Assembly (NCBI RefSeq): GCF_964204865.1
Contig: NC_135263.1
Location: forward strand, 7,364,303 to 7,428,302
Length of the DNA: 64,000 nt
Direction of reading: 5' to 3'
Origin: Styela clava
Lineage: Eukaryota; Chordata; Ascidiacea; Stolidobranchia; Styelidae
Of the stretch, positions 36,379-64,000 are shown piece after piece (position 1 is the first letter of the stretch; every line of letters begins with the position of its first letter). The notes under the pieces were generated by a model. The model searched no databases, was not told where the DNA came from, and saw only the letters and a program-made list of their open reading frames with translations. Both the position numbers and the translations under genes were made by a program.

Positions 36379-39300
36379 TTCAAAGTCGTCGTTTGATGGC
36401 ATCCAGCCTAGTTTGCATTTCCTCTTCTCCATCTTCATTTTCCGTGACCTGGGACAGAGTTCACGGCGCAGAATATTACGTTATATCATGGTACAGTGTG
36501 ACAGAATACGAGAAATTTCTTCAAGTTTCAGGCGAAAATTTTCGCGATGTTATTCTTGATGAATATGAAGACAATCTAACAAAGTAGGTTCCTGTCATAA
36601 CTAAAATTATTGTAATTAAATTATTCTAAAGCAAATAGAGTAGCCATAAACTCTTTCGACCAGTCTAAGATTAGGATCGGAATATTGTATCGTAAAGTAC
36701 ATTTTTTTACCACTTGATTATACTCAAGAAGTCTGATATAAAGTCAATGACATGGTTGAACTAGTTCATTTTTTATTATAAACTATTTATTTATCTGAAA
36801 CTCTATTTGCAATACGCAATATACAAACCATAATTAAAATAGTCGAGTTCAAGAATGTTGAAGAATGTTGTATGTTTTCCAAGCTATTTAACAACAATAC
36901 TTATTATTTGTGGAATAAATCTGATTTTTTTAAACACGGGCGGGATAAAGATAATATTTGAATTTGATTAGTGTACGTTATGAGTACAGTATTGGAAATA
37001 TTACTTAGAAATATAGAGGGTTGATATGCAGCTGAATCCAACCTGTGAATGAAGGAAGTCCACACATACGCAGTATTTCACTTTCAATTGAATGTTTCCT
37101 ATTTAATATGTTCACTTTTCATTCAAATTGCTACTGACGTCGGATTTTTGTAATTGTATTTGTAATCTGCGCATAGATCTCAACATGTTTGCGCTAGCTT
37201 TCAGGAAAAAATTATCGTGACTTATAATATGAATTTAAATTTTCCAATCATAATTGCACTCTCTCATTGTATAAGATGTCAAATGCTTTAATAATTAATT
37301 ATTCACATAGGTACTACGGACTAGACTACGAGATTGCGTTTGAGGCTGTAGCTCAATCCTTGGATTTGAATTTCTATGGATACGTCACAAAATTGAATGA
37401 TGACGTTCGACGACTAGATGTTACGTCACAAAGTCAAAATACGACGTACAACATTGCCATCAGATCTGTAACAAAATCGAAGGCGATTGTAATGATTTTG
37501 AAATGTAATGTCACCACTGCCGTCGAAGGAGGTAAGCGAGCACTAATGAAAAATTGTATTTCAATATCTGGCTTTTCGCAGTCACCGAAGTTGGCCCTGA
37601 CTTTGTGCCACCCTAGAAGTGTAAGTAAATTATCACCGGAAATACCAATAACTGGAATGTTGGAATTCAACGTACGACAACATGAAACATGCTAACCCAG
37701 TCAGTAACGAATTTATTAATAACCGAATGGTGAATAAGATCAAGGTAGAGAAATTGCATCACCTCAATTTAGACTTTACTTCATAAGCGTGTTTAACCAT
37801 GTAGTTGATTTCAGCAGCTTAGCGTCTAGCTGACTCACAAATAGAGCAAAATCAACGGATCAGGTAGCAATATTGGCAGTTCAAGTCTGTTAAGGTCCCA
37901 CATAACGTGGCAAAAATTCATATTATATAGTTTTCATTGTACTCGTTCATACTCGATGACTTCATTGCATCGCCATTTTCGTTACCATTTATTTCTATTC
38001 GTTATCCCCCATTCACAAATTAAAAGTCGATTTTTTCCCTCTTCCCTGTCAATGGTCGTTGCGCTTATAGAAATTGATCTAGGATACACTTTCCGTGACT
38101 GTAAATTTCAGTTTAAATTAAATAAATACAACTATTATTTTTTTAAAGTTCTCTTATATAAACAACCTGTCAAGAGAATCTCAAGTTTTGATTAATTCAT
38201 GAACCGCATTGATCGAAGGTCATAACACTAAGCAATGAATGATCGATCATTCTTAATGCATTTTGGTATTAGTGCCTATTTGAGAGTTTTAGGAAATATA
38301 ATAGTTTAATCTAGTTTAAACTATTCAATTTGTATTCTCTCACGAAATATGATCTAAAACGCATAATACTCACGTATAAACAAAATGTTTTTGCATATCT
38401 GGCCAATTTTTAAAACAATTGAATTTTCAGAAAATATTGCAACAACAACGGAATCTTTGGAGACAACTCCCGGAATTGAAGAGTTGGATCCCTTTTTTCT
38501 TTACATAATCATTCCTATAACATTACTGATTTTATTTTACATCACTTTGCTGGGAATACTAGTAAGATTATTTGCTTTTTTTAAGATTCAAATAGATTGG
38601 CCAGATTCTCAATCCCAATTTCGAATGAATTTATTCCTAAGTAAAGAATATATGACTCTGACAGATCAATGAACAACTAGAATAGCTCACTCTCTTAGAT
38701 TAGGACATTTTCCTTGAAACATATCTTATTCATAAAAACAGAAATCGAGAGCACTAGAGCACGACTTTCAAAAGTAAACATTTTGCCTTTATTTGAACTG
38801 GCCAATGTCATATTGTGATTTTATATGAAAGTACAACTTGATTTACAAATAATGAATTTGCAAACCTATATCCTCATCAATTTTATTCACCGATATTCAA
38901 AAACAACAAAACCAATCGAAAGTCTGTCTGACTTCGATGATAAAGTCATTGTTAACAAATAACTTTTCTATCCCATAGAAATGTTAGATAAATAAAAAAA
39001 AATCGAAAACACAATACGTATCGTTAATTTATATTAATAAAGATAAATCGAAGGTGGAGATTGAAGATACTCCGCATAAAAACTCCAGTTCGAGCAATAA
39101 CCAGATCAACAGAATATTCTGCGACTGATTCATCCAATTGTAGTTCTAGTCCATCATTCACGCACATGAGAAGTACCGATGGAAGTACTGGGTACTCTAC
39201 TATTCGTACGCTGTTTGCTTTGAAAAAATGTTAAAAAATAAAATGTGCTTAGCTTATGTCGCTTGTGTATGTAAAGGCATCGAATTTTAATAGCAGTTTT

Positions 39301-41723
39301 ACCTAAGACACAATATTATCATGACTAATTCTACGAACATACATTATATTCCTAAAATATTAAGATGAGCGATTCACCGTCCTTGAAATATTGGTGTATT
39401 CATTAATTGAGAGTAGTATACACTTAAGTGAAATCAATTCTTAGACACTGAATGCAATCCTAGTCGTGAAAGTAAAATAACCCGAACAAAGCCCTAGCCT
39501 GGAGGTTTGTTTATCTGGAGCTTGAAATTGATGCAATTTAGTTACGAAAAAATTTCATTTATTACAGGGCAACATTAAAAAAGAGAAAAGGGTTTCGAGA
39601 AGGCGTTTTCAAGCACTATGTCGTCACCCCGCCAGAATTATTTGTTCCATCATCTCCGTCTTTCCATCTGCCTACCAGGAATGATGATGTCATGCGGAAA
39701 TATGAAATGGACGAGGATGATGAAGATGATCCCTTTGATCGTTTGCATCACCGGTAAAAACACCTTGTCTATCTTCTATCGCCAATTCAATCTCCTGTTT
39801 GACGAAATTATAATAAAGTCATAATATTAATCATAAGATTGTTATATTAAAAATAAATAATATAACACACAGCTAAGCACGGACTGTTATTTGATTGCCT
39901 TAGTATGTGAAATCTTAGACAGTACTAATTTTTGCCAAGCATTTGCATTTGTGAAAGACAAAAAAGTACAGATAACGTAATTTAAATATTAATGTATCGG
40001 TATTTTAATTTACAGACATTCGCTAACAACGGTTACCGAGGAGTCCGATAGTTGTGGTGAGGTGGCGGATGACCAAAGACGATACGCAAGATTTTCCGCC
40101 AAAACATTTGACTCAAGGCTGACATCTCGCGAATGTAGTTTTGTAACATACGAATCATGGACTCCTGGTTCGAGAGAGCGAATGAGACAGAGAAATTCAC
40201 AACGATATCAGCTACCTATTACTCCCTGGACGCCCAGCAAACGAGACGCTTGGACTGCTGGGTAATTGAAGTTTTCTATTCTCGCTTTAATATATTTTGG
40301 AATATGAAAACGATCTGTCCAACGATAAAAATGTCTACAGTGGACATACGAGCAAGCTGGTGGGCTCTTATCAGAATTTTTATATGTTGCAAATATTGGT
40401 GCCCGTTTCGCAAATATTGGTGCCTGTTTTGCAGAATAATAAACCGCCAAAGCGCTATTGCTTTATATAGCAAAGTTACCAGAAGGTATCCATCAAGTTC
40501 ATTTTATTTTTATAAGTCTAATAAAATATGATCTATTGTTTTGAAAGAGCAAGCAAACGTTTCCTTCAAAATCACTGTAGGATTTCACGTGAACGCTAAT
40601 ATTTCCTAGCATTAAACGAAATAGCATTAAATGAAACTTATATCATATATCCAAATGATATTCTGTGTTATTGAATTATTATTCTCGAAGATTGAATTTC
40701 ATGTATATTCAACAATTAAATATTTAGATCTAGTGGAATCTCAGATTTTACTGAAGAAAGAAGATCAAGTGTATATTGGCTTTCAGACGATGAAACAGAT
40801 TATTCACTAAAAGAGACAAGCGATGATTTTAGGTATTCAACTTATAACGAAGGAAGACATATGCACAGAAGTATGAAGCGCCGACAAAAGGTACTTGAAC
40901 AGCTTTTAACTATGCTGGGATCGCATTTTAGGCGTCATGGATCAAAAAAGAAGTTTTTTCATATATATGTCCAGTAATCTGTATGTACATTTTGTAGGCA
41001 ACCGAAAATTCAATTAATTGTCTGAAATGACAATATGAATAGCATTTTTCAAATAAGAACTGAAATAGAAAGACCATTTTCGCAGATCGAAAGACGAAAA
41101 AGGCGAGTTGTTCCTTCCGTTCTCCACGTCGAACCCCTACTTAATCCACCCGATGACGTCATAAAGAGATCTGAGGATGGGACCAAGATGTTTGCATATA
41201 GTATGATGAACAAAAGAACAATAAATGCGGAAAGGATAAGAAAGGCAACCCCAGCTGTCAATCAGAGATTGAAGGTATTTAGTAATAAAATATTATTAAA
41301 AAATTAGTTGCTACTTTGACATTTGAAGGCAATAAACACAAGGGTGCTATTTATAATATTTAATTCAGTATAAAAGAAAACAGTACAGGAATACTGTAAT
41401 CATTTTATCTAACATTATTAATCGATTTAATACTTTATTTTGTATAATTTTAACGAAATTACTGAATTTTTCATACTAGAAGTAGTTGTTGCAGTTATTT
41501 TAACCGCTACACAGGATATGCTGGTTTCATATTATTGAATAGATACGAGAAACATATTTTTGCAGCACACAAATAGATATGGCATTTTAAATTTGTCTCA
41601 AATGACTCAACAAATTCCTTTTTGCAGATCGCATACCAGTCACCACATGTTCACCCCGAACCGATACCTCAAAGATCAAGACTAAGAGCAACAAAATCTA
41701 CCCGGAATATTTGCATTGTTTGA
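36379..41723 (+). CDS. Type I membrane protein with fibronectin III-like ectodomain, nine 3' exons (5' end missing)
   Basis: Exons are 36379-36583, 37311-37531, 38431-38561, 39043-39191, 39568-39753, 40016-40261, 40728-40890, 41086-41274 and 41628-41723 (TGA). All phases agree, giving 527 residues without the start. Exons 1-2 read as a fibronectin III-like fold: S-F-S-V-T-W, then Y-Y-V-I-S-W-Y, then G-L-D-Y-E-I-A-F-E-A-V, followed by a second strand-like T-T-Y-N-I-A-I-R-S-V. Exon 3 is a Thr/Glu stalk and one hydrophobic transmembrane segment (F-F-L-Y-I-I-I-P-I onward). Exon 4 starts with a basic juxtamembrane stretch and becomes Ser/Thr-rich. Exon 5 has an acidic D-E-D-D-E-D-D cluster; exons 6-8 are Ser-, Arg- and Asp-rich with no catalytic domain. 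The layout resembles cytokine- or guidance-receptor-like proteins, but no WSxWS or box 1 motif is seen, so the family is unknown. Exon 4 has a weak acceptor (AATAAAG), chosen because it restores frame. Confidence 0.75.
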
Positions 41724-42371: not shown

Positions 42372-44719
42372 GTACCAGTTATGAACCAGATTTTTTAGCA
42401 AATTTTCAGTTGGTTTCTGCAGTGGCCGCTTGAATGAGAAAAATCCCTCATCGATTCAACACGATTTATAGCGCTGTGGACATGACGTTTAGAGCCCAAA
42501 TTGACCATAAGCTTTCTTTTGTGTTATTTGGAGTCATATTCGGAGTCCTTATTACATATACCCTCAGATTTAGAAAATGAAGTCGGATTATTCTGATCAA
42601 ACAAAAACATGTTTGCCAACGCGATGCAACAAATTTTTGTAGTACAAAATTTTTTTCTATAGTTGGGTTATCAGAAGGAAAAAAAACAACATAGTGTGGA
42701 CTATGTTTGCGAGCCTCGAATTTTGGTTATATTGAAGTCTTATTGAACACAAAATGTTTAGTTTAATATGTTGTTGTTGATTTTGTTTGTATTTTGTTTT
42801 TGTTGAGAATAACATAGTTCACCAACTAATGGACCAATTGCTTCGAAATTTCCAGTGGTTCAAGACTGTATTTTTCGCTAGAAAGCTATTACTTTCATTC
42901 ATTTCAAAAATTGCTTTAGACGTTTTTTTTGTGTTTGATGACGTCATCACAATCAAAAATTGTGGCGGCTCCGCGTTCGTTGCTTTGTGATTGTCAAACG
43001 AAGTCGTGAAAACAACGATACCGGTAGACTCCTTTGACAGATTGCATACCGTACTATTTTGTGTCCCTATATTTGAGTATCGTACTCTTGTTTTGAATAT
43101 TATGCTATTTCTACTGGGCGTTGCATTCGGCAAAAGCTGCAAATATACCCACTACCAATAACTTCAAAAAATATCGTTGCACTATTAGAAATGACAGTAC
43201 TTAGCAAATCGAAAATGAAATGTAATCGATCTTTTTGCTGACATGTTGCTGTAATAAATATTCAGGTAAAATAACGCATTCTCGGCTATAGCTTTTGTCT
43301 CAAATCGCCTGGATTGCACACTTTATGTGGGTTTTGCCTACTTTTCTGATTGTGTAATCAGTCCTCTGTTATGTTAAACTGGGCAATTGGGGGGCGCTGA
43401 CATCAATACGGGAACTCAAAAGAAGTGTGATAGTTTATGTAATTTACTCCTATGTTTTGGTTCAAACTAGTTTGCTTGTGATTTCGGTGTTGGAAATTTC
43501 TGGCTTAACGTAGACCAGATATTATGACTTTTTTCAGAACCGTTTTGTTTCATAATAATACTAGTCTAGCGCATACGGCATACGCTTCCTTCACCATCCA
43601 CTGCAAGTTTTGTTGTACTGTTTTAAATAACAGCTTCATTTTACTATCGTGTTCTTTAGTGTTTCGAAGCGGCAGTGTAAGTACAACATCCTTCATATTA
43701 TAATTTTGGTTTTGTTAAGAGCAACACGTGAGAGCTGGGCATCTGATTGAACTGACGCACGCCAAATAGGACCATCTCCATGTTGCGACTTGACAGATTC
43801 ATTTATATTTTTTGAGTCATTGAATAATAAGGCTACATAAGTAATACATAAATTGGCAAACGGCAAAGACCTAGCCCGTTGTTAAATCATGTTGTGACTG
43901 AAATTGTTTGGTGTCGGTGTATCATTTGTGTTGCGTAAGTTCAAAATATCGAATACAGTGACTGAAGCAGCATATTTAAACTGATTTATATCAAAAACTG
44001 TATTATACATTGTGGTCTCCAAAAAACTTAGCCATCAAATTCTCGATTACTTCTACAAAAATAAAGTAAATATTCATTTTTGTCTACACTTGAACTAATG
44101 TTTGTGTATGTTTGTACCCAAAATTGTCGGAAAATCTAGGACGTTTTGGACAAAAATATGTTGTTCCTAGAATATATATGTTCCAAATGCCCTCATCGGT
44201 ATTGAAGAAAAAATTTCATTCTTTTTGCAACATTGTCAATCACTCTTCTTTGGGCATTTATTTTATTTTATTTCTGCGATTGCAGCCTTGAGTTCACTAC
44301 TCGTTTGAGGATTGTCCTGATACGAAGGTCCCTCGAACACCCTACATATCAAAAAGTTTCAATTCGATAATTGGGGTGCCTACTATATGTCATTGCTGTC
44401 TTTTCTCTCAGGAAAGCAAGCGTATGATTTTATGTATGGGGCGTCGCCTCGTTATGCTGGAACCACTGCTGGTCACCTCTATCAATCCCTCAAGTGATGT
44501 ACAGATTTTTCTTGGCACAACTACGTAATGTTCTGTATTCACCGTTTGAATTCTTTCATTTCCATGCCCTGCGCTTCAGTAGAAAACTAAGTGGTTGAAA
44601 ATTTTGCGAAACTTCTTTGAAAATCATACGCAAACAGAAGTTCAAGCGCAAATAAATAATTTTTTTGAAGATAGTTAAGAACTTTTTGGTTTCCATTTTC
44701 TAGATAACCCCGAACTTTC
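42372..44719. other. No gene seen; probably decayed transposon DNA
   Basis: No exon sets or family motifs. The left part of the hAT fossil at 44.7 kb may lie here, but its left terminus (expected CAGTGTTTCCCAAAC) was not found. Confidence 0.4.
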
Positions 44720-45145
44720 AGAAGCGAACATGCACCACTATCATTGGGTTTATACTTTAAACCCACGTCCAGTCTTTCAGTATTCCATCTTTTTGGAAAC
44801 ACAATCAAATTGAAATATCCTCACCTGAGAGATCGGGTTAAATATTTTTTTCTTGCTCTTGGTAGCTCATTATTGGTAGAGCGTGTATTTAGTGCAGTGA
44901 CCGCACTTTTACATATAAAGAGAGATTTCCTCGACAGTGTCAGACGAAGAGACTCAAGACTGTGTTTGACTGAAATGAAGCCAGATATTATCAAACTAGT
45001 GGCATTTCACTAGGCTCAATCTTCACATTATACTAATAATAAATGAAGAATAAAGTTGCTTTGACTTTTTTTTTGCCAGGGAGGCGTTTACTAGTTAAAA
45101 AGTCATCCAAGGGGGCGCTGGCAGAAAAAAGTTTGGGAAACACTG
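44720..45145 (+). pseudogene. C-terminal fossil of a hAT transposase plus right transposon end
   Basis: The plus-strand frame 44744-45013 matches the hAT C-terminal dimerisation region: K-Y-P-H-L, then E-R-V-F-S-A-V-T, then S-R-L-C-L-T-E-M-K-P-D-I-I-K-L-V. An in-frame TAG follows H, after which A-Q-S-S-H is still readable, the usual end of this transposase group (the one domesticated as SCAND3/ZBED-type genes). At 45130-45145 the sequence AGTTTGGGAAACACTG looks like the right terminal inverted repeat. Only the 3' end of the element survives and no start or catalytic part is seen. Confidence 0.75.
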
Positions 45146-49200: not shown

Positions 49201-50996
49201 CCGAATTGTATTACTGGTATCGCTCGAGATTTACAAACCTATATTGCAAATACAAACTAGAATAGATAGTTAGAACAGTAGGTACTATAGATGTCAGCAA
49301 CAGTTATACAGCATGTTTATTACGAGAACGAGTAAAGGCAGACGTATTGTAGGTTAGTAGTTGAGATGTTGTAAAAAATGTACCATGTTGTTTGCTTAAT
49401 ATTCATCCATCGGTGCGGACGTTTTAGAAAAAAAAAATCTATGAACTATTCTCGTGAAATGGTTTGTATCAATTTATTCGAATTCCTTTTCCGAAATCAG
49501 TTTGCATACACCCTTCGTCACTATTCGCAATAGATTTCCTCAAGAAAATGAGGCGAATTCAACTGTTCAACTGTTTTTCTCTTCTTAAATAACTTCCATA
49601 ATATTATAGAAATAATTTTAAACATTTCATTCGTACTTATATATTTACTGTGAGACAACTCGGATTTACTTGCTTCGAACGCGTTGAAATTGAGCAAAAG
49701 TCATTTTAGTGTGCTTTTGCTCACAATCCTCACAAACATACACTTCAAATACTATTTTTGTTTTGCTATTGACAATGTTTGACCAGGGCAGCTGTTGTTT
49801 TCTTATTAGAGTTTCATTATTAAATTTATTTTAAAAAAACAACAACTTGTGAGACAAATACGCGATGAACATGTCGGAGCTTTTAACTTAATAACAATAA
49901 AAAGGTATAATAAAAACAAAGTATATTTTTGTTTTCACGGTATAAAAAACAGTCAACATTTACTGGCATTTGCAATGCATTGGTATGATAGTTGGCCAAA
50001 GACCTGCATTTTTATCATCCACCCGTTCAAATTCTATCCTAAATTTACGTGTTGTTTTAAAAGAAAAGTTGTAACCCTTCATAAAATGTCTTCAATAAAT
50101 AATACATGTCAAACAAAAGACAGGATTCCCGCTACTGAAAACCCTGCCAACATGTCAGAACAATTAAAACACCGACAAGTCGGCGGGAATTTTTCTCGCA
50201 TCAAATTTTAATGATGTTGTTATGAAAACCAATCAACATTTAGAAATTAAGTTTGCTTAGCTAGGGTTTTTGTTTAGAAAAATTGAACATATATTTGGAA
50301 TACCGATCAATTGTCAATTATAGCCTTTGTGGCTTGTGACGACGAAGAACATTTTCGGCATGCACGTAGCAAAAATTTTGTTAGCTTAGTCGTTTAGTTA
50401 AAATAGATCATATAGACAGCTTTTTTATTATTATCAGACATGTATTAGCGAGAAAGTTTTAACTTTCATTCCGAGGTGCCTTATTTATATAAAACGAAAA
50501 TGCAGCGTTTCTGCGAAACAATTTTTTGTAGCGTGGCGTAGTACACTGCCCAGTACAATGAGACGAAAGACGACACATTAATTGGAGGATATTTAAAAAC
50601 GATCTTTCGAATGATATAGTTATAATAAATTTCGAATATTAATGCTTTATTTTAAACTTTTCTTCAATAAAATTGTATTTAAAATATTTAAAAGTGAGAA
50701 ATAGTCTCCGCACTAGTTCAGCACTATCTACATGAGTTTTAATAAGGGAAAATAATCAGATACTTACGTTTTGATCATTTGTAGGTTCATCAATAACGGA
50801 ATTTTTTCCATCAGCTAATTCATACTAGTTTCGACTTGATTAAATCTTCCTTAATATTTCCCAGGCCTGATAAGCAGCCACTTTAATATAGAAATGTGAT
50901 GAGTCGACGATATACTGAAATACTGGATATTTATTTATAAATATCTATTATATGACGTCCCTACCGACCTAATAAACGTTTTTAATTTTTTTTTGT
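46201..50996. other. No gene seen
   Basis: AT-rich sequence upstream of the peptide-precursor gene. ATATATAAGG at about 48206 is TATA-like and could be a distant promoter. An open frame of 120 codons at 49849-50211 starts with GTG and has no supporting features. No RNA gene or strong repeat was found. Confidence 0.45.
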
Positions 50997-50998
50997 AG
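50997..50998 (+). promoter_or_regulatory. Splice acceptor in front of the peptide-precursor start codon
   Basis: A long T tract ending TTTTTTTTGTAG gives a strong acceptor 58 bases upstream of the ATG at 51057. No matching upstream exon was identified. It may receive a spliced leader or a 5' untranslated exon. Confidence 0.5.
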
Positions 50999-51056
50999 AT
51001 AGAATAGAAAGTGTCATATTATTTAATAGTGTTCGACTATAAAAAAATCCGAGAAA

Positions 51057-54000
51057 ATGACTCCATATTTAAAAAGGCGGAACATGGCCAATGCAAAATT
51101 TGTCGTTTATCAAGTAGTATTCGTAATTGCATTTGCAGCTATATGTCAAAGTGCTATCATGGGTAAGATTCGAAATATTATAAAATATTTTCAAGTATCT
51201 TGTATTTTTCATGATATTTTGTATATTCATAATTAAATATATTTACGATTTATAAGAAGCAGAAATTCATTTATATATTGATACAGATTGATTGTAATCC
51301 TGCGTGCGGATTTTTGAATATTTACACAGTATTATGTAAAGTCCAGTATTATTATCTACTTTACCGTGAGCTATATATCTAACTCATATATCACGAACTC
51401 ATTCTATAATGTATATATTTATATTTTAAACCCGCGATGAATTGCGCCCTTTGACTATTAGCGCGAATTAAAATTCTGTGTGATTTTATGCACACATCAT
51501 ATATACTCAAAATATATTTGTTTTTGCTCGTTTCAGGGGTGGATCCAACATTATACGAAGATTCACTGGAAGAACTAGAGAGAATGGTGAGAAGACATTT
51601 AAAATTCAACATATTAATAAAACGTTTCTACTTGCACCTGTATTGTTCGACAATGATTGTAATGAAACATATATAATGAATATAGAAGCCTTTCATTGAA
51701 ATAAAATGCAAATTACAATCCAACAATATCGTATCGTAGATTATGTTTCACTTCACAATTTAGTAATATACGTTGTCAAAATGTGTTTTTACCAAATGAA
51801 GTAATATTGTTTACTTTGATACTACGATAAGAAATTAAATATATTTATTAAAGTAAAATGTCAACATTTCTCGCAATATTAATATCAGTCAAATTAAAGT
51901 CAAAACTAAATTAAATTAAAGCTTCTTAGGTAGAATTTGACAAGAGTAGATCAATTTTTCATAATTTGAAATTGTCAATATGCGGATGACACAGGGCATA
52001 TTAATTCCATTTTAGTCCTATTCAAAATGGGAATTTCAATATTTTTTGTATATATTATGCATACATATGAAAAATAATCTTCCAGCACCCTCCAATGCTT
52101 CGGGAATAAAAGTGAACGCTAAATCAAATATGTAAAAATACATCATGATTATTTCATTAAATTCATACCTTTTGGCATATTAAGTTGCTTTGACTTAATT
52201 GACTTTTTGTATTTTTGATCATAAATATGATTATATGATGTTTTTGCATAGAAATCTAAATGATCTACGTATGTGCAGATTAAAATCGTAACTAGCTTGA
52301 GCTAGAGCTTGAGCTTCTGTCAAAAATATTTCCTTTGTTGTACTTGATTAGTTTTCAACGACGGTATCAGTGTACTCGAGAGGACATTTCTATGACTATT
52401 TTAATAGAGATACATAAACCTAGCAAATTAATATTTCAGGCCATAAACAAACACGTCACGAACCGACATAAATTTAAAGCACGACCCAATGAATTATTGA
52501 AAAAAGCAAAATAAAACATTCGTAAAACAAGTCACAGCATCCCCAAAGATGACAACTCCAAAACAAATATAACCGCACATTATTTATAAAAATAATATAC
52601 GACTGAATTAGAGTTTGGAATACATCTTTAATTTATGACACGACACAGCTTTTAACGGGGAGGGGCTCATGTATCTTCATTATTCTAGCGGTCATTAAGT
52701 CGAAATTTTTAGCACGTATTTTTCATGAATTACATTTTGGTTTTGGTGTAGATTCAGACCCCACCCTTTGTTTCAGTGTTGAATATACAAAATTTATAAT
52801 GAAATTTATACCTATCTATATTTCAGTATTTTCCTGAAAGATACGAAGCAATGAAGGAAGACTATACTATCCCAATTCTTGGAGACCTGAATGCTGACGT
52901 AATACATGAGAATACAAGAGGGTTCAAGAATCCGTTTGTCATTAAGAGAGATGACGATGAGGTAAGAAGCTCCCTGCTCTCCTATATTCACAAAAAATAT
53001 ACCTGCTTTTAACATTGACATAAATTATTTTGAATGTTTAAAAGATTGAAGATTGTGTAATATGTAAAAATTCCATTTTGGTTCCCCAAAACCATCAACG
53101 AATAACGAAAACGCCGATTAAAGGAAGCAATGATTATTATAGGTAAAATAAGACGCAATATTTCAATACTTCGTATTCTGGAATCGGTCTTTTGAATATA
53201 AAAAAAAATATTTAGCATGTCATGTATAGTTTTTTTTATTTTTCTAATATCTTTAAATATCATGGAAAAAGTTCTTCGTCATTAAATATTTATAAATAAA
53301 GAACATATAATTTTCCTTATATTCACCTGAAAATTATAACGCAAGCCAATTGATTTTATACTAACGAAAACGAAGACTCGTGAAAATTTCTTTTAGAAAA
53401 TTGTATTGGGGCCGATAAAAGTCCTCAATAATTTTTGATTGTCAAAAAAACTCAAGCGCTGCAAGTATACACAATATGAAATCAGCTTTGCGCTGATTTT
53501 ATAAAAAAATGTTTTTTGACATAGAGAGCTTTTAGAGCAAATGAGAATAAAAACTTTATGCTAGTAAGAATGTCGGGTATCAATGAATTTTGAAGTACTG
53601 AGATAACATTGAGTAATCCCAGAAGTTACTGACATTTATTTTCAATCTAGGAGAAACGTGGAAAAAACGACCAGGCAAAACATTTCTACAAGAGTCCGTT
53701 CGTTCTCAAGAGAAATCAATATCAGGTACTAATTGCCGTTTTGGCAGAATTGCTTGAGTAATCTGAAAATAAATCGTTTGAATAACCGGGCGACATTTAC
53801 ATTTGGCTGGTAAAACCTACTAATTTTAGCGTAGATTAGTGACATCTATGTGCGCGATTCTAGAGATCACTATCCCTATGTGCAATGCTATAGTTCGAAA
53901 TATTTTGTGAGAAATGGGAAAAATATAAAATATTTAATCAAGAGATTGAACCCCGATATACTTATCTACACATCTGATCGTTTTTACTGGAAAAGTTTTT

Positions 54001-56166
54001 TACTTTCAAATCACTTTTTCTTGCAGTAATTGACTATGAAATTGATATTGCTTGGAATTATTATTTTTCAAGTCTCCTCTTAGACGTGGCTTGTTTCGAA
54101 GAGTCGTATAATTGGAGTGTTTGTTGCCATTCCATAATATTTGATCTACAACCAATATGGTTACAAAATGAAATGCTCGAATATTTACAATTTGTGGTAT
54201 TTTTATTTAAACCATCTATATATTTTGTGATGAAAATTATTTGTATGACTCAATTTTCATTAAACACTTCTGATTGGCTAAATTCTGATATACTGAATTA
54301 TCAAATTCACTAACTAGCAGAGAGATTAACAAGTGGATTTTTTTTCCATCAAAACAACGCTTTAATAATTAAAATAAACTGATTCTGAGCATTGACCCCA
54401 AAGCAGGGGAGGAAATCAATTTTTATCAAGTGAACTAAAAGGTGTCAAGTTGAACTCAAGCGTTAAAATGTGATATGGTCCGTATCTCATTGACTTGACA
54501 AATTTTTGATTAAATATTTATAAGTCATATCTGCGTACAAAGCTAATCCTCACCATCGAGAACATAAAGATTTAGATCAGGTCACATTTGTAATTACCCC
54601 GGGAACATTCACTCACTTAAACTTAAAAAGCTCCAAAGACAACGAAGGACATGGTTTCACTATTGGAAATAAAATATTGTGGAGGTTTTATTGTACATCA
54701 AAACCGGACTTTCATATTTTATAATGTGATTCGAAATCCAAGATACTTTGTAATTTTTATATTGGAAATTCGAAATAAAATTTTTACTGAACATTCAATA
54801 GCAATTTGAACTGAATGTATATTGAACAGTTGGATGATCACCGTTATAGTAATAGTGTCACACAAATGGCGGATAGTATCAGACTTCATTTCTAGATATA
54901 ACCCTGCGAATTCTATCTTGTTGTATTGAAAGTAGGAATGAACCACACGAGATTAAAATCGATAGGCTATGTCCACACAGCTGTCCTCGTCACATAAACA
55001 TATATTTACAATAGTTCCGACCTAATCACAAAAGGCTTAAATTTCCGGCAACAAATATAGACAGTGAGTCGAAGCGTATGAAAATCGATTCATCTTTTAT
55101 CTTCCTCGGCGTGCCCTCTTTGAAGTACAATTACGAGTATTAACGTTATTCTAGAGGAAGGTGGCTGAACATTCATACATAAAATTTTTGCTCTGTATAA
55201 GGACGAACGTGGAACTCGCGAGCGGCGAACTGTTACAAAATCGGTATTCCAAAATTACATAATATGGGTTCATTTTTCTCCCTACAATCGAATATGAAAG
55301 AATCGCATCAATTTTTGATTCATTTTTATTTAATTGATGTGACTTTAATGCGTTAATGTAAATATTATGGTTGTTTTGCGTCGAATAATTACTTACTTTA
55401 TATATATATATATATATAATTCGATTTTTAGGAAAATATTTTTAGCATTGATGTGACCCGAGTGACGCAGAAGTCCAGTAATACAAGTTCTGAAAAAAAC
55501 CCGGCAGCCTTAATTTGACACGTTTTTTCGGTCATTGAACGCATATCTTCTAACTGCTGCTCAGTTTTAAATTGGTAAATCTATAAATAAATAATGCGTT
55601 TATTGAGTTGATTTCAAAGGCTATTGGGAGTTGCCCCACCGGGAATACACATATTTATGTTTTAAATCACGCATATTCAAATTACATTAAAGATTGAATA
55701 TTTTTGCATTCTTAGATGCCTCTGATCTTGAAGGAAAGATTCAAGAATCCATTTGCATTCAGAAGCGTCATACCAGATGTTAGAGCAATGTATCAGAATC
55801 CTTCTATTTTCAGACGCCTCGCCGAGGTACGTAGACTATTTACCGAAATCCACTACGCAAGTCGTATTTTGAATCAATTATATGTATTCTTTCTATATAC
55901 TCTTATGAACTCAGAACATTAGCGTTGTAACGTATGACTTTAATGACTTAAAAGCAGTCCGGTTTCGTGCTTCCAACTATGACAAGCAGTAAGAGCAGTA
56001 AGTGACCAATTCTTCTAACACAGTATAGTCAACAAAAGCAATTAACTTCAGAAGGCAAACAACTTTGTTGTAATATCAGTATGTCGCGATTGAATAACAT
56101 TGTAATTCAAGGTTTATGTTACTTTAGGAAATGAACGCCGTTGGACAGGATGACGGAACATACTAG
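51057..56166 (+). CDS. Secreted peptide precursor, neurotensin-like, six exons, 171 residues
   Basis: Exons are 51057-51162, 51537-51586, 52827-52961, 53651-53725, 55716-55826 and 56128-56166 (TAG); all borders are GT-AG and phases agree. The first exon gives a hydrophobic signal peptide (V-V-F-V-I-A-F-A-A-I), with a second in-frame Met at residue 10 that may be the true start. An acidic spacer follows. Then come repeated motifs: F-K-N-P-F-V-I then K-R (85-93), F-Y-K-S-P-F-V-L then K-R (109-118), Y-Q-M-P-L-I-L then K (121-128), F-K-N-P-F-A-F then R (131-138) and Y-Q-N-P-S-I-F then R-R (148-156). Dibasic or basic cleavage sites and free-acid P-x-[VIA]-[ILF] ends fit a neuropeptide precursor; the ending resembles neurotensin (P-Y-I-L) and ascidian neurotensin-like peptides. 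Exons 3-5 are all phase 0 and each carries a motif, suggesting exon duplication. Identity is inferred, not proven. Confidence 0.75.
55399..55419. repeat. (TA)n microsatellite in the peptide-precursor intron 4
   Basis: A pure TA run about 300 bases upstream of exon 5. Confidence 0.85.
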
Positions 56167-57764
56167 AACATTGCTGATGAATGAATATTCAAAAGTATCC
56201 GGGAAGGAGGCACTACTTTTTGCAACTATTAATTGATATTTATTACTAATGAAAACAATCATGTTTATTGGTAGTTTTCTATATATTCCTATACAAGTCT
56301 ATACTTATACAAACAAAATGCAGTCTTATAAATTTTCAATGGCTGATTTTCAGGCTCGAATCATCTACATATTTTTGCATTTTAGTTCATTTTACATAAA
56401 GTCTATAAAATTCAAACAAATTCGATTGATGAAATCAGTAATTCGCAGTTTTTCCTAAAGCCAATCATGTAACTGTTACCGTGGATTTTTTGCATAGCAT
56501 TTTTTTTTGGCAGCCGACTGATATGTACTTATAGACTATGCTGGTTTGCTTCTAGTTTATACATACGAACTCGAAGCATGCGGCAATGGATAAGCCTCAA
56601 ATTCACATCTATTGAATATGACATGACAATATTACAATGTGTAGGAAAAGGTTTGAGAAAGCTCAAAATTGATATTGTAATAAATATTTTAGTACTACTA
56701 TATACATCGCTTATAAATTGAATACCTGATTCAACCCGGCCTAATATGAAATGTAAATCACATAATGGTTTATGATCTATTCCATAAGTTGATATTTGAA
56801 AAAAAGGAAAAATATGCCTTGCGTTCATATCGTATTAATTTCAGTATCGTATGTCAGAAATTTTATGTGAATAAAGTTTGTGTATATTTTGTTCGTACCT
56901 TTATTTTACTTGTGAGATTTTAAATATATATAATTCATGCAATGTGTCACTGATTCGAATACAAAGCATACTTCACAAGTTGATAATTTCATTCTATTGC
57001 CAATTCAAAAGAATAATTGCAAACTATTTTACAAGATTGAGCAATAATTTCTCAATTGAAGTCACTCTATTACTTACACACTCAAAAGTGTACTTTAACA
57101 TAACGAAAATAAATAAAAAAGCAATAATGAAAACAAACGTTTAACAGCAAATCTTCAACGAGTAACTCAACAAAAATCTTTACGAAATGAAAAATTTCCG
57201 AGGATGTTCTAAAGGTCATTATGCCAATGAACTCCACTTTTTAAAAATGTTTCACAAGGAGTAAAATTGAAGTGTCGAATTTTGAGAAATTGTAATGTAT
57301 AATTTGAAAGAAATAGTACGTTAATGGTGGAGTAGGATAACGTGTCGGGCTCGTTTTTTAGAACTATATTAACTTTCATGCAATTCACTTTGAATATTTT
57401 TTAAAAATTGGCATCAAACACTACATAATAAAGTCTCGATATTTACATGTTATAATAGGTTGTTTCAATTGTCTCGCTATCGATGGATCAGTCTGATTAT
57501 TTAACCCAAATTGGGATGCAATTACCCCCAGTGGTACATTCCGACTTTTCAAGGGGTACAATAGATCGAGAAAAATGATGTTTTTTCCATAACTTCTAAT
57601 CTGCCTCAAAATATGTTTTGTTAATAATTTGAATACCTGAGCTTAAGAACTCCCTGAAAACCAACATTTTCACCCTAGTAGAAAATTTACCTATCGTCTT
57701 TTACAGACCACGAGGCGCATGGTAATATAAGGCGCTCTGTTAATAAATTGGTTAGATTTCGTTT
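56167..57764. other. 3' region of the peptide gene and gene-free DNA
   Basis: An AATAAA occurs at about 56869-56874 and could end a 700-base 3' untranslated region, but nearer signals may be used. No further gene is seen before the rDNA-associated GC-rich sequence begins near 57765. Confidence 0.4.
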
Positions 57765-58200
57765 TTATTCCTGAATAAGTCGTATCGGGCCATAAGACGT
57801 GAGTAACGGCCAATCAAGTGTCAGCGGTCGGCGCGAAACCAGCCAAGCGAGCGAGCGAGCGGCAATCACGTGAAAGATTTCGAATCGAGGCGCGAGCCAA
57901 TGGGCGGCGGCGACGCCGCCTTTTTGTATTGCGAAAGGACACGTGGGCTTCGTCAGGGATGAGTGACGGCTCGTCATCAAACCTTGCTCGAGCGCGCCCG
58001 GCGGCCCCGCCCGGCGGGGTGAAGATAAGTCCGAAGCCACGATGACGGGGTGAAGATAAGTCCGACACCACGATGACGTGCCCCACACGGCTCGGTAAAA
58101 AAATAGGACCGAATAGAAAAAAGTCCGGCGCGGGAAAAAAAATAGGACAGGTCTGGCGCCGCTGGCGAGTCGAAAAAAATAAGACAAGTCCCAAAAAGAC
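57765..58200 (-). other. rDNA 3' external spacer
   Basis: Base composition switches from AT-rich to GC-rich near 57800 and stays so into the rRNA genes. The segment lies directly after the 28S 3' end on the minus strand, so it is the 3' external transcribed or intergenic spacer. Long open frames here, up to 210 codons, are by-products of GC-rich sequence and are not genes. Confidence 0.7.
58016..58077. repeat. 31-bp tandem duplication in the rDNA spacer
   Basis: Two adjacent 31-bp units begin GGGGTGAAGATAAGTCCGA and end CCACGATGAC, differing by two bases. Such short repeats are common in rDNA spacers. Confidence 0.92.
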
Positions 58201-59496
58201 AAATCGTAGATCTGGAGGATGACTTTCAACAGATCGCAGTGCGAAACTGTTCTAGTGGGTACGACACCCCGATCTGCAACTAGGTCGTCTGCAAATGATT
58301 TAGCACCTCGCTTTCGCGCAGGTTGCTCGCCTCGACTTAGGCGCGAGTCGTTCGCTCGCGCCAAAGGGTCGAAACACTCGGCTTCGCCGGCGGCCAAACG
58401 GCCGCCTAACTTCGCCTCGCCGGCGGCGAGGCACCAGATTATCGTCGCTACTTAAGCGGGATTCTGACTTCAGAGGCGTTCAGTCATAATCCCCCAGATG
58501 GTAGCTTCGCACCATTGGCTTATCAGCCAAGCACATGAACCGAATGTCTGAATCTGCGGTTCCTCTCGTACTGAGCAGAATTACTATCGCAACAACACTA
58601 CATCAGTAGGGTTAAACTAACCTGTCTCACGACGGTCTAAACCAGTGCTCCGCAACCGGTGTGCCGCGGCGTCCCTCCCTTCCTGACACCCCTCACTGTG
58701 CATTTGTGACGTAACAAGGAGTACACCTATATAAGAAGCATGTATATTGCAAAGCTTATTGTCGAGGCTAAAACATAGCACATGTAGTAATCGAATATAA
58801 ATAAAGTTTGAGTTTGCAGAATCAGTGGCCAGTGGTCTTTGATTAAAAAAGTCAAGGAACGTTAAAGTTTTGCAAAATGGATACATTTTTAAAAAGAGTG
58901 CCTGATACTGAGCAACATATTGTACCTAGCACAAGCAACGTTGAAAAAAAAAACTTGTCAAAAGGAAATACAGGGAAGATTACGTCAATTATGGATTTTC
59001 TTGCTGTGGTAACGGAGATGCTCCAAAACCAGTCTGTGTTATTTGGGGGGAGCAACTTTCAAATGAAGCAATGTTTTCGAGTAAACTTATGCGCCACTTA
59101 AATACAAAACTTGTCGTTCATGCACGCAAAAATATAAATTATTTTCAGCGGTTGTTAAGTCAAAATAAGAAGCAAGAGTGCTCTCTAATGATCCTAATAT
59201 AGAGCAATTGTGCTCATTAAAACAACCACAAATCTCTCGTTGTTATATGAACATAAAACAAAGTTACACCTTGTATTTTTTGTTTGTTGTGGTGTGCCGT
59301 CAAATTTGGCAAATTTTATAAGTGTGCCGCGAGTTAAAAAAAGGTTGCGGAGCACTGGTCTAAACCCAGCTCACGTTCCCTATTGGTGGGTGAACAATCC
59401 AACGCTTGGTGAATTCTGCTTCACAATGATAGGAAGATGCCGACATCGAAGGATCGAAAAGCAACGTCGCTATGAACGCTTGGCTGCCACAAGCCA
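58201..59496 (-). rRNA. 28S rRNA, 3' part, interrupted by a hAT element
   Basis: The minus strand reads conserved 28S 3' sequence: the CGACGTCGTGAGACAGGTTAG-type block at 58610-58640, the GGGGGATTATGACTGAACGCC region at about 58470-58500, and the terminal ATCTGTTGAAAGTCATC and ACGATTTGTC near 58200-58240. A 715-bp transposon occupies 58643-59357. Conserved 28S resumes from 59358 to 59496, then stops within the segment that normally continues into CAGTTATCCCTGTGG. Only about 570 nt of true 28S remain, so this copy cannot make functional 28S. Confidence 0.9.
58643..59357 (+). mobile_element. hAT element inserted in 28S rDNA
   Basis: The termini are a perfect 15-bp inverted repeat, CAGTGCTCCGCAACC and GGTTGCGGAGCACTG. 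The 8-bp target GTCTAAAC is duplicated at 58635-58642 and 59358-59365. Inside, on the plus strand, a Met-Asp-Thr-Phe-Leu start at 58877 opens a 74-codon frame. About 150 bases later, in another frame, a degenerate BED zinc finger is readable (C-V-I-W-G-E-Q-L, then L-M-R-H-L-N-T-K): its second Cys is now Trp and the final His is gone. The rest of the transposase is deleted. The element is a 715-bp internally deleted, non-autonomous copy of a BED-finger hAT of the ZBED5/SCAND3-like group. Confidence 0.92.
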
Positions 59497-60362
59497 GACG
59501 GACGCCCCCGTCTGTCCCTCTTAATCACCTCGTTAATTACCTCGTGCTCCGAAAACCAACAAAATAGAACGGAGGTCCTATTCCATTATTATGCAGGCAA
59601 CACTATGCAGGCGAACAGCCTGCTTTGAACACTCTAATTTTTTCAAAGCAAACTTAGTCAAGAGAACCGACGGAGAACCGAAGGTGAGGCGAACGCAATC
59701 AGTAACACGCCTTGCGACGGACCGGCGGCGCTCGCCCAAAATCCAACTACGAGCTTTTCAACCGTAACAACTTTAGCATACATTATTGGAGCTGGAATTA
59801 CCGCGGCTGCTGGCACCAGACTTGCCCTCCAATGGATACTCGTTAAGAGTTTTAGGATGTACTCATTCCAATTACAGGGCCTCGTTAGAGTCCTGTATTG
59901 TTATTTTTTGTCACTACCTCCCCGTGTCGGGCATGGGTAATTTGCGCGCCTGCTGCCTTCCTTGGATGTGGTAGCCGTTTCTCAGGCTCCCTCTCCGGAA
60001 TCGAACCCTGATTCCCCGTTACACGTTATCACAAAGGTAGGCACGTAGCGTACCTTCGACAGTTGATGGGGCAGACACTTGAATGATACGTCGTCGGTGC
60101 AGAGACCGTTCGATCCGCGTGGTTATCCAGAGTCATCAAACGTCACAGGACGATCTGATAAAAGCGCGCCTCCCGAAGTCGGCGCTTAATGCATGTATTA
60201 GCTCTAGAATTACCACAGTTATCCACTTCGCTTACGAGACCAAATAAACCAAGACTGATTCAATGAGCCATTCGCAGTTTCGCTTTACGAGAACTCGTAC
60301 CTGCGCCTGCATGGCTTAATCTTTGAGACAAGCATATCACTACTGGCAGGATCAACCAGATA
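59497..60362 (-). pseudogene. 18S rRNA 5' half, decayed
   Basis: The minus strand starts with the 18S 5' end (TATCTGGTTGATCCTGCCAG at 60362) and runs about 866 nt to the region equivalent to GGTAATGATTAAGAGGGAC. Compared with the 18S at 62236-64000 it has a ~21-base deletion near 59655, an insertion near 59540 and a local rearrangement near 59600. It then joins 28S sequence at about 59496/59497 instead of continuing. It is a relic or chimeric copy. Confidence 0.88.
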
Positions 60363-60780
60363 GCTGCGACAGCTGCGCTCGGCCCTTGCTGGGCCGCCCG
60401 GCGCGTGCTCGTCGCATTCGTTTAAGACCGAGGCGATCGCCTGCGGCCGTACTCGGCTTCGACAGTCGCTGGCCGCGACGTCCACGCTCTCGCCAGCCAG
60501 TGCCAAGCGAAGCGCTTTGCGTTTCGTCTTTGCTCGCCCTCTCTCGGGCTCGATCCATTCAGTTTCGCACAAACAAGAGCTCTGTCGGCCGCCTGCAGCG
60601 GTGCCTAAAACCCGGGCATAACAAAGCGACCGTTCTGCTAGGCCGACAAACGCTCAAGCCAGACGCTCGATCGAGCGCCACCTACATAATAGTCGAGACA
60701 ACGGCTCGCTCATTAGCATCGCGTTTGTACTTTAACTTTTTTCGGCTCGGCTTCTCTCGAAGCCGATGCCCGCAGGGCAC
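60363..60780 (-). other. Probable 5' external spacer upstream of the 18S relic
   Basis: GC-rich DNA upstream (in minus direction) of the 18S 5' end; expected to be 5' external transcribed spacer. Its junction with 28S D2 sequence lies somewhere around 60740-60830 and cannot be placed exactly by eye. Open frames here are composition artefacts. Confidence 0.55.
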
Positions 60781-61111
60781 CGAAGCGGCAGCCCGCCGAA
60801 CACCAGCACTGCGTACAGTGCAGGCGAACGACAAGTCACCCGAACGGCGACGGCCGCACACAGAGAGCGCGCGGCATCCTTTCCACGATCCGCCGCCGGC
60901 CTCACCGCCTGCGCGCTGTAACACCCCCGCCGGAGCGGAGGCCACCTTCGCGCGGGGACTTAGACCGACGGCAAACCGGTCGTGACCCGCGCCGGTCGCT
61001 AGTGCGCTGAGACGGTGCGCGAACCGACTCGGCAGCGGCGCCCTAAGCGTCCGCCCTAAGCGTCCCGTTTGCCTCTCAACGGTTTCACGTACTCTTGAAC
61101 TCTCTCTTCAA

Positions 61112-61143
<32 letters not shown>

Positions 61144-61500
61144 CCGCTATCGGTCTCGCGACCGTATTTAGTCTTAGGTGGAGTTTACCACCCGCTTTGG
61201 GCTGCATTCCCAAACAACCCGACTCCGAGAAGACCCGAAGCGGCAAAGGCAAGCGCCCCTATGGGCCTAACACCCGCCGTGGGACGAGGCCTCGATCAGA
61301 AGGACACCGGCGCTCGCCGTCAGCCGCACTGGGACTTCCGCACGTCACAACTCGGCGCGCTCGAAAAGCGCGCAGATTCGACGCTGGACTCTTCCCGGTT
61401 CACTCGCCGTTACTCAGGGAATCCCTGTTGGTTTCTTTTCCTCCGCTCAATAATATGCTTAAATTCAGCGGGTGCTCTCGCCTGAACTCAGGTCGTATAT
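60780..61500 (-). rRNA. 28S rRNA, 5' part (to D2), truncated
   Basis: The minus strand starts at about 61500 with CGACCTGAGTTCAGGCGAG, then shows conserved core sequence (ACCCGCTGAATTTAAGCAT, GTGAACCGGGAAGAG, GTTCAAGAGTACGTGAAACC) and enters a GC-rich D2 expansion segment. The core block that normally follows D2 is absent; the sequence passes into spacer-like DNA. The lower limit given is approximate. Confidence 0.8.
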
Positions 61501-61781
61501 GTCAAGCGGGCCGCTTCTTACACGGCCCGCTGGCATCGCAAGTCGTCGCCGCCGGCGCCGACCGAGCGCGTACCGTCGCCGCCTTGGCCCACGGTCGGTC
61601 TTGATCTTGTGACCGGACCGACCGACCTGGACCCGCCTCTCGAACGTAGTTGAACACGTCGAGGGGCCGGCGGTGTACGGGACACGCGGTCGCGCCGAGA
61701 AAGCTCGGCGACCGCTTCAACTTGGGGCGACGCCCGGCCGTCTTCGCAGAGGCCAGGCGACGGCCCTCGGGTGAGGACGAA
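61501..61781 (-). other. Internal transcribed spacer 2
   Basis: About 281 bp of GC-rich, non-conserved sequence between the 5.8S 3' end and the 28S 5' end. The 28S boundary is placed by the conserved start and may be off by a few bases. Confidence 0.85.
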
Positions 61782-61938
61782 CGCGACCCTGAGGCAGACG
61801 TCGTCCCGGGATTGACCCGAGACCGCAATTCGCGTTCAGAAGGTCGACGTTCAATGTGTTCTGCAATTCACATTACTTCTCGCACTTGGTTGCGTCCTTC
61901 ATCGACTCGCGAGCCGAGTGATCCACCGTTAAGAGTCG
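61782..61938 (-). rRNA. 5.8S rRNA
   Basis: The minus strand reads CTCTTAACGGTGGATCACTC near the 5' end, GATGAAGGACGCAACCAAGTG in the middle and GTCTGCCTCAGGGTCGC at the 3' end. The length of about 157 nt is normal for animals. It lies between ITS1 and ITS2 in the standard order. Confidence 0.95.
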
Positions 61939-62235
61939 TCCTCGACGTTTCGCCCGGCGCCGAAGCGCGCGGACGTCACACTGTGGGATCGACCACAAAA
62001 CCACCACCGACAACAACTGCACAAAAACACCAACAAACGGCGCCGACCGACCGCCGGGCTGGGCCGGCGGCACATCGAGCGCGGTGCCCAGAAGCCACCA
62101 TCGCACTCGGCTGCCTTGCTATGCCAACGTGTTACGCGTGTCGCACGGGGCGGAACCCCGATTGACGGCCGCCCTCTCGGCGGCACCCAAAGACAATTAA
62201 GTGCGCGGTCGGCCGGGGCCTACCACCACCTTCGG
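61939..62235 (-). other. Internal transcribed spacer 1
   Basis: About 297 bp of GC-rich non-conserved sequence between the 18S 3' end and 5.8S. Short open frames are artefacts. Confidence 0.85.
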
Positions 62236-62279
<44 letters not shown>

Positions 62280-62381
62280 ATTTACTTCCTCTAAATGATC
62301 GAGTTTGATCGTCTTCTCGACACGCCGACGCGGCCGTTGCCAGTCGCGACGGGGCCGATCCAAGGATCTCACTAAACCATT

Positions 62382-62427
<46 letters not shown>

Positions 62428-62855
62428 ATCAACGCAAGTTGATGACTTGCGCTTACTGGGAATTCCTCGTTCAATGGAAACAATTGCAAGTCCCTATCCC
62501 AATCACGAATGAGGTTCAACGGGTTACCCGGACCTTTCGGCCTAGTTTAGACACTCAGTGTAGCGCGCGTGCGGCCCCGGACATCTAAGGGCATCACAGA
62601 CCTGTTATTGCTCAATATCGTGTGGCTAAACGCCACTAGTCCCTCTAAGAAGGTAGACGCCGACCGAGAAGGTCGCGTAACTATTTAGCATGCCAGAGTC
62701 TCGTTAGTTATCGGAATTAACCAGTCAAATCGCTTCACCAACTAAGAACGGCCATGCACCACCACCCACAGAGTCAAGAAAGAGCTCTCAATCTGTCAAT
62801 CCTACCTGTGTCCGGGTCGGGTGAATTTTCCCCGTGTTGAGTCAAATTAAGCCGC

Positions 62856-62896
<41 letters not shown>

Positions 62897-64000
62897 TTAA
62901 GTTTCAGCTTTGCAACCATATTTCCCCCGGAACCCAAAGACTTTGGTTTCCCGGAAGCTGCCAGAAAGGTCGTCATGGTAACGCCTCCCGATCGCTAGTT
63001 GGCATCGTTTATAGTCAGAAATAGGACGGTATCTGATCGACTTCAAACCTCTGACTTTCGCTCTTGATTAAAGAAAACATTCTTGGCGAATGCTTTCGCA
63101 GTAGTTCGTCTTCCGCCGATCCACGAATTTCACCTCTAACGGCAGAGTACGGACGCTCCCGTCTGTCCCTCTTAATCACTACCTCGTGCTCCGAAAAGCA
63201 ACAAAATATAACCGAGGTCCTATTCCATTATTCCATGCAACACTATGCAGGCGAACAGCCTGCTTTGAACACTCTAATTTTTTCAAAGTAAACTTATCGG
63301 CCACCGCCGACACTCAGTCAAGAGCACCGACGGAGAACCGAAGGTGAGGCGAACGCAACCAGTGACACGCCTTTCGACGGACCGGCGGCGCTCGCCCAAA
63401 ATCCAACTACGAGCTTTTCAACCGCAACAACTTTAGCATACACTGTTGTAGCTGGAATTACCGCGGCTGCTGGCACCAGACTTGCCCTCCAATGGATACT
63501 CGTTAAGAGTTTTAGGATGTACTCATTACAAATTACAGGGCCTCGTTAGAGTCCTGTATTGTTATTTTTTGTCACTACCTCCCCGTGTCGGGCATGGGTA
63601 ATTTGCGCGCCTGCTGCCTTCCTTGGATGTGGTAGCCGTTTCTCAGGCTCCCTCTCCGGAATCGAACCCTGATTCCCCGTTACACGTTATCACAAAGGTA
63701 GGCACGTAGCGTACCTTCGACAGTTGATAGGGCAGACACTTGAATGATACGTCGTCGGTGCAGAGACCGTTCGATCCGCGTGGTTATCCAGAGTCATCAA
63801 ACGTCACAGGACGATCTGATAAAAGCGCGCCTCCCGAAGTCGGCGCTTAATGCATGTATTAGCTCTAGAATTACCACAGTTATCCACTTCGCTTACGAGA
63901 CCAAATAAACCAAGACTGATTCAATGAGCCATTCGCAGTTTCGCTTTACAAGAACTCGTACTTGCGCCTGCATGGCTTAATCTTTGAGACAAAGCATATC
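62236..64000 (-). rRNA. 18S rRNA, nearly complete (5' ~20 nt outside the window)
   Basis: The 3' end at 62236 is the universal GTAGGTGAACCTGCGGAAGG ... ATCATTA. Upstream blocks include TTGTACACACCGCCCGTCGC, AACTTAAAGGAATTGACGG-type sequence and GGAAATATGGTTGCAAAGC. The window stops about 20 nt before the expected gene start, so total length would be about 1.79 kb. Two single-base oddities relative to the relic copy lie in conserved parts: an extra base near 63529 and another near 63993. They could be sequencing errors or signs that this copy is also decaying. Confidence 0.95.

Follow-up and report, generated by a model that had tools for sequence, protein, structure and literature searches.

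Styela clava, an ascidian, appears to carry a gene for a repetitive neuropeptide precursor. The gene lies at 51084-56166 on the plus strand of a 64,000-nucleotide stretch of contig NC_135263.1, here called the window (C18:7364303-7428302 in the genome searches). It probably encodes the precursor of ascidian neuropeptides or peptide hormones, and no second copy was found in the window's own genome. The predicted protein begins with a segment resembling a signal peptide. Beyond it lie acidic spacers and five short sequences that resemble one another, every one of them directly before one or two basic residues. The precursor is judged to be of the multi-copy, free-acid tunicate type, like those of the Ciona peptides CiNTLP, CiLF or CiYFV/L.

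Gene structure and predicted protein

The gene consists of six exons, with splice sites called by eye. GT-AG borders flank each of the five introns, and joining the exons leaves one open frame of 162 codons plus a stop. Exon 1 (51084-51162) encodes the signal-like peptide MANAKFVVYQVVFVIAFAAICQSA and ends at the donor GG/gtaaga. Exon 2 (51537-51586), preceded by a phase 1 intron and followed by a phase 0 intron, encodes the acidic spacer GVDPTLYEDSLEELERM. The motifs are borne by the next three exons. Exon 3 (52827-52961) encodes a spacer, GFKNPFVI-KR (motif at 52923) and DDDE. Exon 4 (53651-53725) encodes EKR-GKNDQAKHFYKSPFVL-KR (motif at 53687), then NQYQ, the start of the third motif. Exon 5 (55716-55826) supplies the rest of that motif as MPLIL-K, followed by FKNPFAF-R (55740) and YQNPSIF-RR (55791). 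Exon 6 (56128-56166) encodes the C-terminal tail EMNAVGQDDGTY and the stop TAG. The lengths of exons 3, 4 and 5 (135, 75 and 111) are multiples of three with phase 0 borders, in agreement with the phase 0 noted for the motif-bearing exons in a preliminary description of the sequence.

An upstream ATG at 51057 would add the nine residues MTPYLKRRN to give a 171-residue version. Judged by eye, translation more likely starts at the second ATG (51084), which has the better context, AACATGG, and yields an ordinary signal-like N-terminus without the nine extra residues. The N-terminus is strongly hydrophobic; the best 15-residue Kyte-Doolittle mean is 2.6 (residues 6-20), compared to a maximum of 0.63 in windows starting after residue 28. 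The signal-like character was judged from this hydropathy. The sole cysteine (residue 21) falls within the signal-like N-terminus.

A T-tract followed by GTAG at 50986-50998, upstream of the ATG, resembles a splice acceptor, which might serve a noncoding first exon or a trans-spliced leader. The sequence TATAAAA at 51038-51044 is box-like and may mark an alternative 5' end; both features are on the plus strand and were called by eye. The 16-base leader of Ciona occurred twice compared to once for a control, and was dismissed as chance. Downstream, an AATAAA resembling a poly(A) signal is present on the plus strand at 56870-56875, with others at 56679 and 57108.

Repeated motif

The five copies follow the pattern [FY][KQ][NSM]P[FLS][VIA][ILF] and, together with the two residues after each, read GFKNPFVI-KR, FYKSPFVL-KR, QYQMPLIL-KE, RFKNPFAF-RS and MYQNPSIF-RR. 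The preliminary description had reported five such motifs behind a signal peptide, each followed by K, R, KR or RR, with peptides ending at residues 91, 116 and 154. The spliced frame and the hydropathy profile bear this out, the motifs ending at residues 91, 116, 127, 137 and 154 in the 171-residue numbering. Dibasic residues (KR, KR and RR) come directly after three of the motifs and a single K or R after the other two. There are four dibasic sites in all, the extra KR sitting between copies 1 and 2. The third motif is interrupted (YQ/MPLIL) by the exon 4/5 junction. No glycine stands before the basic residues that come after the motifs, and free-acid C-terminal ends are therefore predicted. 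The motifs end in PFVI, PFVL, PLIL, PFAF and PSIF. The neurotensin-like P-x-[VI]-[IL] ending described earlier thus holds for three of the five copies, whereas the other two end in F.

The repetition exceeds what shuffled sequence produces. Read in six frames, the region contains the strict motif plus K or R four times (the remaining copy is interrupted by an intron), while 1000 dinucleotide shuffles contain none. For a looser pattern the count is five, one of them antisense, compared to a shuffle mean of 0.147 and a maximum of 3. Both patterns were derived from the data themselves, and a single copy used as a probe is the fairer test. When copy 1 (FKNPFVIKR) is the probe, the three matches that follow it have scores of 38, 31 and 25, whereas 200 shuffles reach at most 31, 26 and 23 at these ranks. 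With copy 2 (YKSPFVLKR), the scores are 38, 24 and 23 compared to shuffle maxima of 35, 26 and 22.

Several observations weigh against a peptide precursor. With copy 2 as the probe, the rank-two score is within the shuffle range. In the 51,056 bases of the window that precede the gene, the four highest single-match scores of FKNPFVIKR are 28, 26, 24 and 24; over such a ten-times-longer stretch the weakest copy counted (25) would by itself be unremarkable. The splice sites rest on judgement by eye, and after two of the five motifs there is just one basic residue. An hmmscan of the precursor against Pfam, to E 10, returned only an unrelated bacterial family at E 0.77, below the cut-off, although the HMMER filters discard most very weak matches. 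Searches of NCBIfam and PDB gave no relevant match, the hit to an NADPH dehydrogenase at E 0.37 being chance. Finally, the copies have diverged. The ten pairs of copies give 80 codon comparisons: 17 identities, 15 silent differences and 48 that alter the residue. With residue-altering differences so prevalent, the codons by themselves make a weak case for selection and do not prove it. On this comparison the motif copies would be old or fast-changing.

The excess of residue-changing over silent differences would also suit a non-signalling explanation, in which the open stretches encode a secreted protein whose KR sites are coincidental, or have come together by chance. This explanation is unlikely given that the copies go beyond shuffles, share one frame, lie on spliceable exons behind a signal-like segment and stand directly before dibasic sites in three of five cases. 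A peptide precursor remains the favored interpretation. It is further supported by the invariant proline, encoded by CCG, CCG, CCT, CCA and CCT, by the tunicate host and by the multi-peptide precursors established in Ciona (PMC12441681).

Copy number and possible exon duplication

The genome searched was the window's own, 376.6 Mb in 379 contigs; the Ciona genome is much smaller. The whole precursor as query (E up to 10) matched five of its own six exons, exons 3, 4 and 5 among them and exon 6 excepted, and nothing else in this genome. Genome searches score the best candidates only, so a diverged relative could escape. A degenerate DNA pattern for the motif occurs at eight places in the genome, three of them in the precursor gene, compared to 13 places for the reversed control pattern. 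The other five places are short stop-bounded frames, of which one runs antisense to a long open frame, and K or R follows the motif in two of the five; judged by eye, they are chance. The best candidate among them, YQNPFVMKR on contig C4, lies five codons downstream of an in-frame stop and lacks an obvious splice acceptor. The precursor gene thus looks single-copy in the assembly searched.

Phase 0 exons had been proposed as a path for growth by exon duplication. Such phases permit duplication, and the gene is weakly compatible with it. However, duplication is not demonstrated, because the exon 4/5 junction cuts through motif 3, and the longest match between exons 3 and 5 is 16 bases (93.75% identity, E about 0.03), besides 10-base ones; exon 4 matches only itself.

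Proposed processing

The precursor protein would enter the secretory pathway, where prohormone convertases would cut at KR 83-84, KR 90-91, KR 108-109 and RR 146-147 (numbering from the ATG at 51084). Further cuts are possible at the single residues R74, K98, K119, R121, R129 and R136. A carboxypeptidase would then trim the basic residues, leaving peptides with a free acid end. The likely products are GFKNPFVI, (GKNDQAK)HFYKSPFVL and AMYQNPSIF, with FKNPFAF and NQYQMPLIL less sure. By analogy with the Ciona precursors, processing would take place in secretory granules, followed by release as several short free-acid peptides. Their targets would be class A G protein-coupled receptors, one or several, as is the case for the mixed peptides cut from Ciona precursors.

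Other features of the window

The window contains a multi-exon class A receptor gene on the minus strand at about 9110-11885, some 40 kb upstream of the precursor gene. Its six exons were joined by eye, and the best PDB match is the gonadotropin-releasing hormone (GnRH) receptor (5.6e-44), with the vasopressin V2 receptor at about 1e-23. For one exon of this gene there is a partial relative a short way outside the window, at C18:7356625 (45% identical), and there are two more with equal scores on contigs C97 and C17 (39%). Open stretches on the plus strand at 36269-40974 resemble, by eye, a fibronectin-type receptor that crosses the membrane once and has a long cytoplasmic tail; three stretches compared with Pfam gave no match at the cut-off, DUF4992 reaching E 0.003 in one, below it. 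A short plus-strand frame at 44708-45010 resembles, by eye, the C-terminal portion of a hAT-type transposase, and a Pfam scan of it was without match. Ribosomal DNA occupies 57500-64000 on the minus strand, with a nearly whole small-subunit (SSU) gene at 62236-64000, 5.8S at 61784-61937 and a low-scoring large-subunit match at 58199-61495. A second SSU piece (59498-60338), 94% identical to the 5' half of the SSU, lies within the span of the large-subunit match. This ribosomal DNA adjoins an otherwise AT-rich, gene-bearing region.

Tunicate markers in the genome

The GH6 family (PF01341) has one match in the genome, at 35.4 bits compared to a cut-off of 27, and none in 14 control genomes. This match is consistent with the tunicate cellulose synthase fusion. 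The genome also has one cionin-type exon (C16:17643042), which encodes AERNYYGWMDFGK-stop and ends in NYYGWMDFGK-stop, with a single K after the amidation glycine; the reversed control pattern gave 0 matches. In cionin, as described for Ciona (PMC8428848), tyrosines occupy the sixth and seventh positions from the C-terminal amide. The exon found here has the same tyrosine arrangement. An ascidian host is supported because both markers, the cionin-type exon and the GH6 match, are present. A search for COX1, for a test of the mitochondrial code, gave no match.

Possible relationship to neurotensin

The C-terminal end of neurotensin is R-R-P-Y-I-L, and the pro-neurotensin/neuromedin N family has two peptide copies with the C-terminal end P-[YW]-I-L. 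Compared to R-R-P-Y-I-L, K-N-P-F-V-I and K-S-P-F-V-L are identical or conservative at five of six places, and a free acid end is predicted here too. From this one might suppose true homology with vertebrate neurotensin/neuromedin N, together with a receptor of the neurotensin type. Such homology is very unlikely. The precursor has no match to Pro-NT_NN (PF07421), and P-[YW]-I-L is absent from all five copies. PLIL agrees with P-Y-I-L at three of four places, yet only a single K, then E, follows it. The PF07421 profile gave no match over the whole genome, but none in the control genomes either, so absence is not proven.

An NTSR1 query gave seven matches in about five genes of the genome and led to other class A receptors first. 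Two of these genes were compared with PDB. The best gene is closest there to somatostatin receptor 2; two others look muscarinic or aminergic by eye. The second gene compared with PDB, a 104-residue fragment from C3:15283402 onward, is closest to the ghrelin receptor (GHSR, 48.5 bits), then to the NPY2, KISS1 and motilin receptors, with NTSR1 at 39.1; further exons of the same gene match NTSR1 weakly, at 39.7 and 24.3 bits. This divergent multi-exon class A peptide receptor gene is a candidate receptor for the peptides.

The earlier neurotensin reading therefore stands in part. The repetitive, apparently secreted precursor with predicted free-acid ends was upheld, whereas no Pfam family reached the cut-off and no clear neurotensin receptor emerged. 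The neurotensin-like look, which extends over four to six residues, may reflect similar receptor docking or convergence. There is only a slight chance that the precursor is a surviving tunicate neurotensin type, in which the P-F-V-[IL] peptides would keep the docking end while other copies spread to F-ending variants. If so, the neurotensin-like peptides of Ciona would be tied to the vertebrate neurotensin system. Neurotensin is not named in the main text of PMC5818035.

Comparison with known peptide systems

CiNTLP, CiLF, CiYFV/L and neurotensin were compared by the C-terminal ends of their peptides. CiNTLPs have P-x-[VI]-[ILV] free-acid endings with S or G after the proline. CiLF peptides end in LF and CiYFV/L peptides in YFV or YFL, also as free acids, and a proline four from the end is not known as a feature of either. 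It is possible, though rather doubtful, that the gene is the local orthologue of the Ciona CiNTLP gene, with peptides that would act like CiNTLP-6 on tachykinin-driven follicle growth. The host is an ascidian, and the predicted free-acid P-x-[VI]-[IL] of three copies is an ending of CiNTLPs as well. However, the residue after the proline is F, F, L, F and S here compared to S or G there, and the two copies that end in F leave three of five that fit P-x-[VI]-[ILV]. Orthology would also be in keeping with two reports. CiNTLP-6 suppresses tachykinin-induced gene expression and ovarian follicle growth (PMC8936170), and CiNTLP-5 and -6, like CiLF-1 to -8 and CiYFV/L, each derive from one multi-peptide precursor (PMC12441681), so that several peptides per precursor are found in both species.

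It is quite plausible, if somewhat short of probable, that the precursor belongs instead to another Ciona family, CiLF or CiYFV/L, or to an orphan family of its own lineage. The endings vary (VI, VL, IL, AF and IF) and touch more than one Ciona family, and no family model scored above the cut-off. The invariant proline four from the end is not known from CiLF or CiYFV/L, and none of the five copies ends in LF, YFV or YFL; an orphan family is unaffected by either point. The precursors of CiLF and CiYFV/L are also multi-peptide (PMC12441681). A literature search with the motif strings of the precursor matched no paper, and neither did CiNTLP strings, so this result carries little weight.

In Ciona, the growth, maturation and ovulation of follicles are regulated by tachykinin, CiNTLP-6, vasopressin and cionin (PMC8936170; PMC12441681). 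CiLF, CiYFV and CiNTLP are counted among the peptides specific to Ciona (PMC8936170). With a well-formed precursor now known from a second tunicate, whose genome is larger, its short predicted peptides could be made synthetically, both to test whether peptides of this kind really occur in a single genus and to find their receptors.

The multi-copy, free-acid precursor described here can be set beside three known systems. Like pro-neurotensin/neuromedin N (PF07421), it has dibasic sites and, in two of five copies, a predicted free-acid end composed of proline, an aromatic residue, a branched residue and I or L; unlike it, the precursor has five copies instead of two and matches no Pfam model. 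CiNTLP precursors, such as that of CiNTLP-B, are likewise ascidian and carry several related peptides, with free-acid P-x-[VI]-[IL] ends that recur in three of five copies here. The precursor departs from CiNTLP in that four copies have F or L next to the proline, two copies end in F and a conserved [FY][KQ][NSM] comes before the proline. CiLF and CiYFV/L share the free-acid endings, but the precursor of S. clava has a conserved proline four from the end and mixed endings, none of them LF, YFV or YFL. As in the S. clava gene, one precursor of either Ciona family holds several similar peptides (PMC12441681).

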